Shown: one piece after another, positions 2,422 through 7,191 of the stretch
Position numbering within the stretch: the stretch's first letter is position 1
How the letters are laid out: each line of letters begins with the position of its first letter
Assembly: GCF_022843985.1 (NCBI RefSeq)
Contig: NZ_JALHMP010000010.1
Location: 1-64,000, forward strand
Direction of reading: 5' to 3'
Length of the DNA: 64,000 nucleotides
DNA from: Phreatobacter sp.
Lineage (GTDB): Bacteria; Pseudomonadota; Alphaproteobacteria; Rhizobiales; Phreatobacteraceae
The notes under the pieces: model-generated
Told to the model about the DNA's origin: nothing
What the model saw: the letters and a program-made list of their open reading frames with translations, nothing else
The model's database searches: none
Program-made: the position numbers and the translations under genes

Positions 2422-3012
2422 ATGCTCGCAGGAGCCAAGCGGATGACCGCCACCGTCTGGGCCTATTTCGACGGGACGACGCCGCGCAGCGCCATCGCCG
2501 GATCGGTCGCCTTCATCGTCGTCTCCAACCAGCCCTTCTACCCCTTCTATCTCTACCTGCTGCTCGGTGGACGGGCCTGGCCGGCGCTCCTCACCTGGTT
2601 CTCTGCCCCGCTCTTCGCCGCTGTTCCGCATGTCGCGCGCAGCAGCGAGGCGCGCGGCGGCGCCTTGCTGGTGACGGCCGGCATGGCCAACACGACCCTG
2701 TGCACCCTGGCAATGGGGCCGGCCTCGGGTGTCGAGCTCTTCTACCTGCCCTGCATCGCTCTGGCGCTGCTGCTGTTCACCGATCGCACGCGCAATCTGG
2801 CGGTGGCGGCCACCCTCATCGCCATGGTCTGTGCGATGGGCGCCGTCCGCCTCGCAGGCGCCGAAGGGCTCGTGCTGATAACGGCTGATGAACTGACATC
2901 TCTGCGCCGCATTAATGCCTTCAGTGTCTGCGGCCTTCTCGCCGTGATGGCCTATCTGTCGCGCCGCCTCTGGTGGCGCGCCGCGTCGGTCACGCCGACG
3001 GACGGGCGCTGA
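2422..3012 (+). CDS. Six-helix integral membrane protein, unknown function
   Basis: 196 aa. The ATG at 2422 has AAGGAG 8 nt upstream. About six hydrophobic segments are visible, the last (NAFSVCGLLAVMAYLSRRL) near the C-terminus, followed by a basic tail. No catalytic domain follows, although such multi-TM blocks often serve as sensory modules in signalling proteins. Its 3' end overlaps the convergent DUF2177 gene by 23 bp. The prediction is inner-membrane; function is unknown. Confidence 0.7.
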   Translation: MLAGAKRMTATVWAYFDGTTPRSAIAGSVAFIVVSNQPFYPFYLYLLLGGRAWPALLTWFSAPLFAAVPHVARSSEARGGALLVTAGMANTTLCTLAMGPASGVELFYLPCIALALLLFTDRTRNLAVAATLIAMVCAMGAVRLAGAEGLVLITADELTSLRRINAFSVCGLLAVMAYLSRRLWWRAASVTPTDGR

Positions 3013-4737: not shown

Positions 4738-5049
4738 TCAGAACCGCTCGGGCCGCACCACCTCGACATCGGTGACCCAGACCAAGAGGCCGTACGAATT
4801 GAGCAGCGGCGTCAAGGCTTCGACGAGTTCGCCCGCATGGGCCTCCGTCGTGATGGTGAAGACCAGCGCCTTGGCCGAGGCGCCGGCGATCTGGTCGTCC
4901 GACCAGGCATTCAGCCGGCCACCGCCCGCCGCGACCGGCAGGACCGTGTAGCCGGTGACGCCGCAGCGTTTCACCACCTCGACGATCCGCCGCACCAGCG
5001 GCTGGTCGGCGAGGATCTCAACCTTCTTGCGTCGGGCCGTGCTGTTCAT
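4738..5049 (-). CDS. PII-like protein paired with SbtA (SbtB-like)
   Basis: 103 aa. The start ATG at 5049 overlaps the stop of sbtA (ATGA), implying translational coupling. A ferredoxin-like PII fold is suggested by VRRIVEVVKRCGVTGYTVLPV, a short T-loop region with Gly-rich AAGGGRLNAWSDDQ, and the closing strand LLVWVTDVEVVRPERF. In cyanobacteria SbtB binds adenine nucleotides and controls the bicarbonate transporter SbtA; the adjacency argues for the same pairing here. The C-terminal redox extension of some cyanobacterial SbtB proteins is absent. Ligand and regulation are inferred. Confidence 0.8.
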   Translation of the reverse strand: MNSTARRKKVEILADQPLVRRIVEVVKRCGVTGYTVLPVAAGGGRLNAWSDDQIAGASAKALVFTITTEAHAGELVEALTPLLNSYGLLVWVTDVEVVRPERF

Positions 5050-5996
5050 GACGCCAACCATCGTGCGAAGAGCGACACGGCGGGAATGCCGAGCGCGATG
5101 TTGAAGGGAAAGGTCACCGCCAGCGACATGGCCAGCGACAGGCCGGCATCCGCCTGCGGCAGGGCGAGGCGCATGGCCGCGGGGACGGCGATGTAGGAGG
5201 CACTGGCGCAGAGGATGCCGAGGGCTGCCGCCGAACCGGTATCGAGACCGATCCCATGCCCGACCAGCGTACCGACCGTGCCGTTGACCACCGGCATGAG
5301 CACGCCGAGCCCGGCAAGGCGCAGCGTGAGTGACCGCGTCTCGCGCAGCCGGCGGATGGCGATCAGGCCCATGTCCAGAAGGAAAAGGCAAAGGATGCCG
5401 CGGAAACCGGACTCGAAGACGGGCGCGATCGTCGCGAAGCCGTTCTTGCCCACAATCAGTCCGATGACGAAGCTGCCGAGCAGCAGCACGACTGTGCCGT
5501 TCAGCAGCGTCTCGCGCAGGAGTTCGCCACGCTCGTGGCTGTCGGAGGCCCCGGTGCCCTTCGCCAGGATCAGGCCGGCGATGATCGCCGGGGTCTCCAT
5601 CAGGGCGAGCACCGCCACCATGAAACCGGCCGGCGGCATGCCGGCCGCCGAGAGCATCTCGCTGCCGGCCACGAAGGTCACCACGCTCACCGAGCCATAA
5701 TGGGCGGCGACCGCTGCCGCATCGATCCGCCCGAGCCGCCCGACGCTGCGCAGCAGGCCGAAGGCCGCTACCGGGATAATGCAGCTGAGCAGGAGACCGG
5801 CGACGGCGGCCGTGGCCATCAGGGGTGAGAAGCCGCCCTCCGCCACCTGCACGCCACCCTTCAGGCCGATGGCGGCCATTAGGTAAAGCGCCATCCCCTT
5901 GGCAATAGGCTCGGGGATGGCGAGATCGGAGCGGGCGGCGGCGGCCAGCGCGCCGAGCACGAAGAAGAGGATGACTGGCGAGAGAAGGACTTCCAT
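5046..5996 (-). CDS. sbtA: Sodium-dependent bicarbonate transport family permease (SbtA)
   Basis: 316 aa, about ten hydrophobic segments arranged as two repeats. SbtA-type features are MAAIGLKGGVQVAEGG in the first half, AAHYGSVSVVTFVAGSEML, and LDMGLIAIRRLRE plus HYGS-like LCASASYIAVPAAMRLALP in the second. The family catalyses Na+/HCO3- symport across the inner membrane in cyanobacteria; proteobacterial members are mostly uncharacterised. It starts 9 bp after terC ends and overlaps sbtB, so terC-sbtA-sbtB is one operon. The Gly-rich Shine-Dalgarno is unusually close to the ATG, so the start may be slightly off. Confidence 0.87.
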   Translation of the reverse strand: MEVLLSPVILFFVLGALAAAARSDLAIPEPIAKGMALYLMAAIGLKGGVQVAEGGFSPLMATAAVAGLLLSCIIPVAAFGLLRSVGRLGRIDAAAVAAHYGSVSVVTFVAGSEMLSAAGMPPAGFMVAVLALMETPAIIAGLILAKGTGASDSHERGELLRETLLNGTVVLLLGSFVIGLIVGKNGFATIAPVFESGFRGILCLFLLDMGLIAIRRLRETRSLTLRLAGLGVLMPVVNGTVGTLVGHGIGLDTGSAAALGILCASASYIAVPAAMRLALPQADAGLSLAMSLAVTFPFNIALGIPAVSLFARWLAS

Positions 5997-6005
5997 CCCC
6001 CTGTC

Positions 6006-7019
6006 TTACATGGCCCGGCCCGCCATGTGACCCGCCTGGCCGCGCGTCTTCCACAGGCTGTAGAGGACGCCGCCGGCGAGCAGCCCGAAAGTGACCGCCA
6101 GCGAGAGGGCCGGCGGCACCTTGTCGATGCCCAGGAGGTCGGCCGCGAACACTTTCGAGCCGATGAAGATCAGCACCAGGGCCAGCGCCGTCTTCAGGTA
6201 GTGGAAGCGATGGACCATGGCGGCGAGGGCGAAATAGAGGGCGCGCAGGCCGAGAATGGCGAAGATGTTCGACGTGTAGACGATGAACGGGTCGGTGGTT
6301 ATGGCGAAGATGGCCGGCACCGAATCGACCGCGAAGATAACGTCGGCGATCTCAATCAGCACCAGCGCCATGAACAGCGGCGTCATGAACCAGACCGTCC
6401 GGCCACTCGCCGGCGCCCTCGGGTCCGGCAGCTTCACGAAGAACTTCTCGCCGTGATGGCTGTCGGTGACGTTGAACCGCCGCCGCATGAAGGCCAGCAC
6501 CGGATTGGTCGCGATGTCCGTCTCGCCTTCCTTGAAGACCAGCATCTTCACGCCGGTAGCGATGAGGAACACCGCAAAGACCGAGAGAACCCAGGAAAAC
6601 TGGCTGACCACGGCGGCGCCGACGCCGATCATGATGGCGCGCAGGACGATGACGCCGATGATCCCCCAGAACAGCACCCGGTGCTGATATTTCCGCGGCA
6701 CCGCGAAAAACGAGAAGATCATGGCGATGACGAAGACATTGTCCATCGCCAGCGCCTTCTCGACGGCGAAGCCGGTGAGGTAGTTCATGCCGGCTTCCGC
6801 GCCGAGCGCCCACCAGACCCAGGCGCCGAAGGCGACGCCGAGCGTGATGTAGAAGGCCGAGAGCAGCAGGCTCTCCTTGGTCTCGATCTCGCGGTGCCCC
6901 TTGTGGAGCACACCGAGGTCGAGGACGAGCAGAACGATGACGATGGTGATGAAGGCGAGCCACATCCAGACCGGCTTGGTCAGCCAGACGGACAACAGAA
7001 AATCAGAGAGGAGTTCCAT
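6006..7019 (-). CDS. TerC family integral membrane protein (TerC/Alx-like)
   Basis: 337 aa, about nine TM segments. The TerC signatures are present: EKALAMDNVFVIAMIFSFF around residue 90 and the second acidic motif EIADVIFAVDSVPAIFAIT around 230, joined by a hydrophilic loop (about 180-210). TerC/Alx/MeeF-type proteins are linked to manganese or other metal export, often serving proteins matured in the exoplasm, and to alkaline stress. It is the first gene of the terC-sbtA-sbtB operon, which suggests a shared role in pH, bicarbonate or metal homeostasis. The family call is firm; the transported ion is inferred. Confidence 0.9.
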   Translation of the reverse strand: MELLSDFLLSVWLTKPVWMWLAFITIVIVLLVLDLGVLHKGHREIETKESLLLSAFYITLGVAFGAWVWWALGAEAGMNYLTGFAVEKALAMDNVFVIAMIFSFFAVPRKYQHRVLFWGIIGVIVLRAIMIGVGAAVVSQFSWVLSVFAVFLIATGVKMLVFKEGETDIATNPVLAFMRRRFNVTDSHHGEKFFVKLPDPRAPASGRTVWFMTPLFMALVLIEIADVIFAVDSVPAIFAITTDPFIVYTSNIFAILGLRALYFALAAMVHRFHYLKTALALVLIFIGSKVFAADLLGIDKVPPALSLAVTFGLLAGGVLYSLWKTRGQAGHMAGRAM

Positions 7020-7191
7020 GATCGGACCCGTATCTCGAGGTTGCGAGATGATCCGACATCATGGCGTGAGCCATCAGAGGGGCCCGGATCGGGCGGAGAA
7101 AAGCCCGCCGATCTTGGCGATAATGCGGCCGATTCAGGCCACATGCGGTGGCTGGCGGCCGATGCGACCAACCGCCTCAGCCTGCTCCCGG

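Follow-up and report, generated by a model that had tools for sequence, protein, structure and literature searches.

What would lead an alphaproteobacterium that does not look like an autotroph to keep a transporter and a PII-type regulator of the SbtA/SbtB kind directly behind a terC gene? The question is raised by the first 64,000 nucleotides (nt) of contig NZ_JALHMP010000010.1 of Phreatobacter sp. (assembly GCF_022843985.1), the whole of which we call the window, and in which three genes are packed on the minus strand: terC (6006-7019; 337 amino acids, aa), sbtA (5046-5996; 316 aa) and an sbtB-like gene (4738-5049; 103 aa). They are preceded on the same strand by a match to the terC RNA family (Rfam RF03067; 7044-7095), a candidate cis-regulatory leader, and we propose that the unit is a stress operon under an orphan RNA, in which the terC RNA senses the signal and TerC responds jointly with a PII-gated anion transporter; to this reading we give a probability of roughly 0.4. 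The parts belong to known families, while their combination is new: the terC-sbtA-sbtB/terC RNA combination was not found in the literature searched, a set thin in subscription journals. As such, the unit offers a testable handle both on the orphan RNA and on SbtAB of non-autotrophs.

The operon and its leader RNA

The arrangement described in the original prediction, in which a 9-bp gap is followed by an ATGA overlap on one strand, was confirmed by the coordinates, as terC and sbtA are separated by 9 nt (6005 to 5997) and sbtA and the sbtB-like gene share an ATGA (5049 to 5046). The assignment of the first gene to the TerC/Alx-type integral membrane proteins likewise held, its product scoring 403 bits with TIGR03718 (TerC/Alx; cut-off 246.4) and 173 bits with PF03741 (TerC; cut-off 27.8). 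The sbtA product matched PF05982 (Sbt_1; 360 bits, cut-off 27) and the 103-aa protein PF00543 (P-II; 44.9 bits, cut-off 25). The best named match to the window SbtA (96% identity) was recovered from a Phreatobacter metagenome-assembled genome (MAG; L084).

The terC RNA (7095 to 7044, 50.1 bits against a gathering score of 39.9) ends 24 nt ahead of the terC start codon and, together with one tRNA, accounts for the sole Rfam matches at gathering score across the window. The family, originally described reportedly by Weinberg and colleagues in 2017, is built of an outer stem, a conserved internal loop (9 + 4 nt) and a variable inner hairpin. Covariation was assessed in 47 sequences (the window and 46 others, chosen for variety from 108 collected terC RNAs), all of which were gathered with the Rfam model and are thus biased toward its own structure. 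In these, 87.9% of the stem cells pair, compared with 69.3% in shuffles and no more than 37.5% in slid controls, and 164 cells are doubly changed (64 in shuffles, at most 41 in slid controls), so that the two-stem structure with its conserved internal loop is supported by covariation. Between the upstream racemase gene and the RNA lies a terminator-like hairpin (7120-7105); such hairpins are not above chance in the upstream region (2 vs 1.5 expected).

Genes found behind terC RNAs

The terC RNA was present in 97 of the 297 genomes sampled from the order (Rhizobiales) and in 40 of 289 from the class (Alphaproteobacteria). The order sample yielded at least 150 matches; RNAs identical in the RNA and the first 60 nt were merged as one place, 5 of 113 fuzzy places were discarded by eye as chance matches, and the downstream genes were read at the remaining 108 (107 of them in the order sample, the other in L104, a named MAG), at least two of which fall slightly below the gathering score (39.4 and 38.3 bits). 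A TerC-superfamily gene lies in the 1.4-2.6 kb of downstream DNA read at 82 of these 108 places (51 Alx-type, 26 short TerC and 5 DUF475; classes were called from profiles built in the analysis, with few members checked in Pfam), and at 15 of 19 places (18 loci) in the class sample. By covariance model the window RNA belongs to this same family and holds the same place before a terC gene; what the window unit adds is sbtA and sbtB behind it.

The other partners are fewer and of several kinds. Within the window's genus, five genomes have a gene for the F1-ATPase inhibitor zeta behind a terC RNA (two identified by Pfam scan, the others by clustering), and in the window's own genome a second terC RNA (G000:C3:25264-25326; L064, 2774-2819, minus strand) is found about 40 nt ahead of such a gene. 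In two further genomes of the genus (G009, L082; G003, L081) that position is taken by a CusB-like membrane-fusion gene, adjoined in G009 by an RND pump gene, and the RNA variant of these loci has its outer base pair swapped yet still pairing. DUF4112 genes occur downstream at five places without TerC (two scanned) and zinc-ribbon proteins at three (one scanned); the 26 places without TerC further include two with a YegS/diacylglycerol-kinase-like gene, one each with Tim44-like and TerB genes, and seven to which no family was given. At L066 the RNA is followed by TerB and then TerC, and at five places (L034, L036, L038, L040 and L045) a YegS/diacylglycerol-kinase-like gene comes directly behind the RNA, TerC being next in at least two of them. 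Back-to-back divergent pairs of terC RNAs, some 100-130 nt apart, were also observed (G340:C2:1489503/1489661, G427:C157:2785/2971 and G428:C9:125403/125560).

Because terC RNAs mostly precede TerC-superfamily genes, and otherwise those for CusB/RND, TerB or the F1-ATPase inhibitor zeta, the most fitting reading of the operon is as a member of a metal/alkaline-stress regulon into which sbtAB was drawn as well. The link to metals or pH that the original prediction had drawn from terC is therefore backed by the terC RNA and by the other genes behind terC RNAs. The partner set as a whole (TerC, short TerC, DUF475, TerB, CusB/RND, F1-ATPase inhibitor zeta and SbtAB) narrows the candidate signals to metal or pH stress.

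A parallel is offered by yybP-ykoY (RF00080), a distinct RNA family found with alx, mntP and ykoY, which likewise leads TerC-family genes and is tied to Mn and alkaline pH. The alx and mntP switches of E. coli are reported to respond to Mn and alkaline pH (PMC9603457), and in Vibrio parahaemolyticus a TerC downstream of a yybP-ykoY-type switch is reported to lower cell Mn (PMC13274385). In the order, yybP-ykoY was detected in 6 of 150 genomes (3 above the cut-off), and the window's own genome gave no RF00080 match. As yybP-ykoY is rare in the order and the terC RNA frequent before TerC genes, the latter seems, through guilt by association, to hold the yybP-ykoY niche there. A bolder proposal, which we deem unlikely, is that the terC RNA acts as a riboswitch for metal and/or pH that replaced yybP-ykoY in Alphaproteobacteria, and that in the window's genus its control has been extended to a PII-gated anion (bicarbonate) transporter and, at another locus, to an F1-ATPase inhibitor; if true, metal export, bicarbonate flux and proton-ATPase activity would all be set by one RNA. 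Caulobacter vibrioides, in which control searches returned matches for the terC RNA and an Sbt_1 gene, could serve as laboratory host, although its own match to yybP-ykoY (strong or weak) must be allowed for.

Proposed mechanism and points against it

In the mechanism that we propose, the terC RNA would open a transcript shared by the three genes, read a metal/alkaline-stress signal (most likely Mn2+ and/or high pH) and control terC. Since sbtA starts 9 nt past terC and overlaps sbtB, the same RNA switch would also set SbtA and SbtB. TerC would then export or allocate Mn2+, SbtA would move a small anion (probably HCO3-) with Na+, and SbtB would plug SbtA depending on adenine nucleotides, perhaps also on bicarbonate. 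A heterotroph exposed to such stress would probably benefit by holding its cytosolic HCO3- and pH within range. Of this picture, the genes and their layout, the structure of the RNA, the protein folds and the recurrence of TerC genes behind the RNA were observed, and co-transcription, ligand, direction of control, substrate and physiology are inferred.

A number of observations weigh against this reading, and those that concern the RNA are given first. Variation on both sides, seen in 12 of its 16 pairs, is equalled in number by 27 of 500 shuffles, and the almost invariant core around the loop is partly a selection effect, since the sequences were collected by means of the Rfam model and a near-exact pattern of that core. 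The Rfam entry for RF03067 bears a cis-regulatory label only and names no ligand, no signal or ligand for the RNA was found in the (same, thinly covered) literature searched, and a promoter search upstream of the RNA found none. The alkaline half of the reading meets a further difficulty in V. parahaemolyticus, where TerC is reported to have been of help in a weakly acidic medium instead of an alkaline one (PMC13274385). The replaced residues of SbtA and the comparison with related genomes, both given below, count on the same side.

As for the direction of control, in its most stable fold the window leader pairs the 3' half of the aptamer with the terC start codon (z -1.30; 25 of 200 shuffles fold equally well). 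Hiding of the start codon is not family-wide: among the 108 RNAs the mean z was -0.19, with 7 below -2 and the window at -1.42, and in a second family control the mean cross-rank was 0.53 over 36, with the window at 0.14. A common translational switch that hides the start codon with the aptamer 3' half failed both of these family-wide controls and was rejected.

Conservation of the terC-sbtA neighbourhood

Above the cut-off, sbtA was recovered at 54 places in 46 of the 297 genomes of the order; these are counts of places, not of events, rows within a genus or family being non-independent. Seven of the 54, spread over three families and three layouts, have an Alx-type terC in the vicinity of sbtA, against 0.36 expected by chance. 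For three families with 0.36 expected, P is about 0.006, a value computed post hoc with the families treated as independent, which tempers the support it lends to a stress operon. The neighbourhood recurs above chance yet is rare, and terC could be missed at places where the flanks are at most 1.5 kb (G141, G092, G164, G081 and G050) or where the contigs end near sbtA (G264, G111 and G296:C123). No TerC match was obtained anywhere in the genomes of G141, G164 and G264, nor within the 6-kb sbtA flanks of L109.

The layouts differ among the families. Four genomes of the window's genus carry the collinear RNA-terC-sbtA-sbtB, with 8-9 nt between terC and sbtA, and this triple was seen in that genus only, a restriction that again counts against a stress operon. 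In G055, from another family, RNA, terC and sbtA are followed by a TetR-like gene (by eye) with no PII gene, and in G016 and G226:C10 (family f6) terC is divergent from sbtA, the opposite strand of G016 carrying a LysR gene, terC RNA, terB and terC. G226:C10 and Devosia geojensis (L105) have open reading frames (ORFs) of G016-like kind and order (the TerB of L105 was identified by Pfam scan, the LysR counterpart of both by ORF size); as they are identical in the RNA and the first 60 nt, they cannot be taken as independent cases. All seven neighbourhoods have a terC RNA upstream, that of G226:C10 just under the gathering score (39.4 bits). Among named loci, terC was found in the flank at 3 of the best 80 of at least 583. 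The notion of a terC-sbtA-sbtB order conserved across genera was rejected on these counts (7 of 54 and 3 of 80), by which terC is rarely near sbtA, the very outcome that the original prediction had named as refuting it.

The same comparison raises the question whether the RNA-terC cassette merely landed upstream of an independent sbtAB, which would retain its own control with no functional link between the two. Consistent with this, sbtA mostly occurs with no terC beside it (47 of the 54 places show none in the flank examined), and in the related genome G002, whose SbtA is of the same type, both flanks align in the same order and sbtAB is intact, while window positions 5997-7162 (terC and the RNA) have no counterpart at the aligned locus. 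It would explain less well why the spacing of 8-9 nt is found in 4 of the 5 genomes with the window SbtA type in spite of an sbtA DNA divergence of up to 14% (the nearest pair being G002 and G004, 92.2% identical in sbtA DNA), why terC and sbtA are neighbours in three families, and why the terC RNA is upstream in every one of the seven cases. We regard this explanation as a real possibility, though not a probable one. This related species without RNA and terC provides a natural comparison for sbtAB.

SbtA, SbtB and the transported anion

The AlphaFold2 (AF2) model of the window SbtA (predicted local distance difference test score, pLDDT, 88.9) has the 5+5 fold and matches 7egl, the HCO3--bound Synechocystis complex (TMq 0.89), at 23-25% identity to Synechocystis SbtA. 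Liu and colleagues are reported to have docked HCO3- in the latter at Ser114, Tyr140, Ser324 and Ser327 (PMC8352866). The window protein keeps the equivalents of Ser114 and Ser324 and has Leu for Tyr140 and Ala for Ser327, so that the full slr1512 set is not present. With two of the four HCO3- residues replaced, the label 'bicarbonate permease' is weakened: from the original prediction of an SbtA-type bicarbonate permease the SbtA fold stands, and the substrate has become less certain. The protein is a member of the Sbt_1 superfamily and not a proven SbtA1, and judged by its residues its bicarbonate transport is putative.

These replacements characterize a subfamily. Among 135 aligned SbtA rows (relatives of the window protein, near-duplicates included, and thus no population figures), 124, which come from cyanobacteria as well as from alphaproteobacteria and other proteobacteria, have another residue for Tyr140, in most cases Ala, Leu or Met, and Ala or Val at Ser327; nine, the Synechocystis row among them, have the classic set, and two are cut short. 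The change of site warns against naming proteobacterial Sbt_1 proteins bicarbonate importers by family alone. Classic-site sbtA genes were observed in alphaproteobacteria as well, six with a nearby PII-like gene (L234-L239, opposite strand in five) and two without (L240 and L241).

Such a site would also suit a transporter that is no bicarbonate importer, moving another small anion (e.g., formate) or acting as an exporter, in which case the operon would be an anion/metal efflux module. The alanine mutants of the four Synechocystis site residues are reported to have retained about 10-40% of transport (PMC8352866), and a Shewanella SbtA homologue was reported to be tied to formate tolerance and was modelled as an efflux protein (PMC12093963). 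Against efflux speak the retained S114 and S324 equivalents and overall fold, the PII-like ORF near sbtA at 40 of the 54 places (L032 included), the bicarbonate present in some entries of CPII (the nearest solved fold of the 103-aa protein), and the SbtA2 of marine Synechococcus, perhaps of the same subfamily, which is reported to import HCO3- in E. coli (PMC13249358). On balance we find a non-bicarbonate transporter somewhat unlikely. The window subfamily may be the SbtA2 type of cyanobacteria, since SbtA2 of marine Synechococcus is described as belonging to a separate SbtA subfamily, paired with a PII-like protein of its own, SbtB2 (PMC13249358); a Leptolyngbya 'SbtA2', reported with the binding residues kept (PMC10536570), speaks against this equation.

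The 103-aa protein has the PII ferredoxin-like fold, so that its proposed grouping with PII-like proteins is upheld. Its AF2 model (pLDDT 86.4, weak in the T-loop) placed CPII of Thiomonas intermedia first in Foldseek (5d4l/5d4n, E 3.7e-9), followed by a Thermus PII-like protein and cyanobacterial SbtB chains (Cyanobium SbtB, E 3.3e-8), and a search with the sequence only ranked Cyanobium SbtB first (E 3.5e-6), from which the T-loop sequence differs. CPII, which is 23-26% identical to the window protein and described as carboxysome-associated, has PDB titles that list ADP, AMP and bicarbonate. The window protein ends in ...RPERF and lacks the CGPxGC tail that forms the redox R-loop of some SbtB. 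The original prediction was correct as to the missing C-terminal extension, from which it drew a possibly different ligand. Such an ending is not unusual: the solved Cyanobium SbtB (104 aa), which aligns to its last residue with the window protein, is also without the tail, and the absence of an R-loop therefore says little on the ligand. Seventeen proteobacterial SbtB-like rows end at the same point, one with a single extra residue.

Metabolic setting

A known counterpart of the pair is the cyanobacterial SbtA1-SbtB (slr1512-slr1513), likewise an adjacent transporter and PII-like regulator with matching folds; the window pair departs from it in its SbtA (about 25% identity, Tyr140 and Ser327 replaced), in an SbtB without R-loop, in the terC gene and terC RNA upstream, and in a genome in which no Rubisco-based carbon-concentrating mechanism was seen. 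As SbtA and SbtB are reported to serve carbon concentration in cyanobacteria (PMC13249358), the operon could be thought a remnant serving Rubisco-based CO2 fixation, a view that the gene content renders very improbable. The one PF00016 (RuBisCO-family) match of the window's own genome is OiaX-like (NF042437, 455 bits, under the cut-off of 700), its score with the rubisco_III model (220 bits) being lower than that with OiaX, and an ORF near it resembles a four-carbon acid sugar kinase (by eye). A true RuBisCO was not found in this genome, in keeping with the non-autotrophic context supposed at the outset, and 7 of 12 genomes of the genus had no RuBisCO-family match; autotrophy was rejected on these two grounds. 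With an OiaX-like protein as the only RuBisCO homologue found, a carbon-concentrating role of the operon appears unlikely, and it would be more plausible that HCO3- is supplied to ordinary carboxylases or serves pH balance. One beta-carbonic anhydrase, the only carbonic anhydrase class searched, is encoded in the genome. Elsewhere in the window, positions 2422-3012 (plus strand) encode a protein whose single Pfam domain found is a MASE7-type membrane sensor (35.7 bits).

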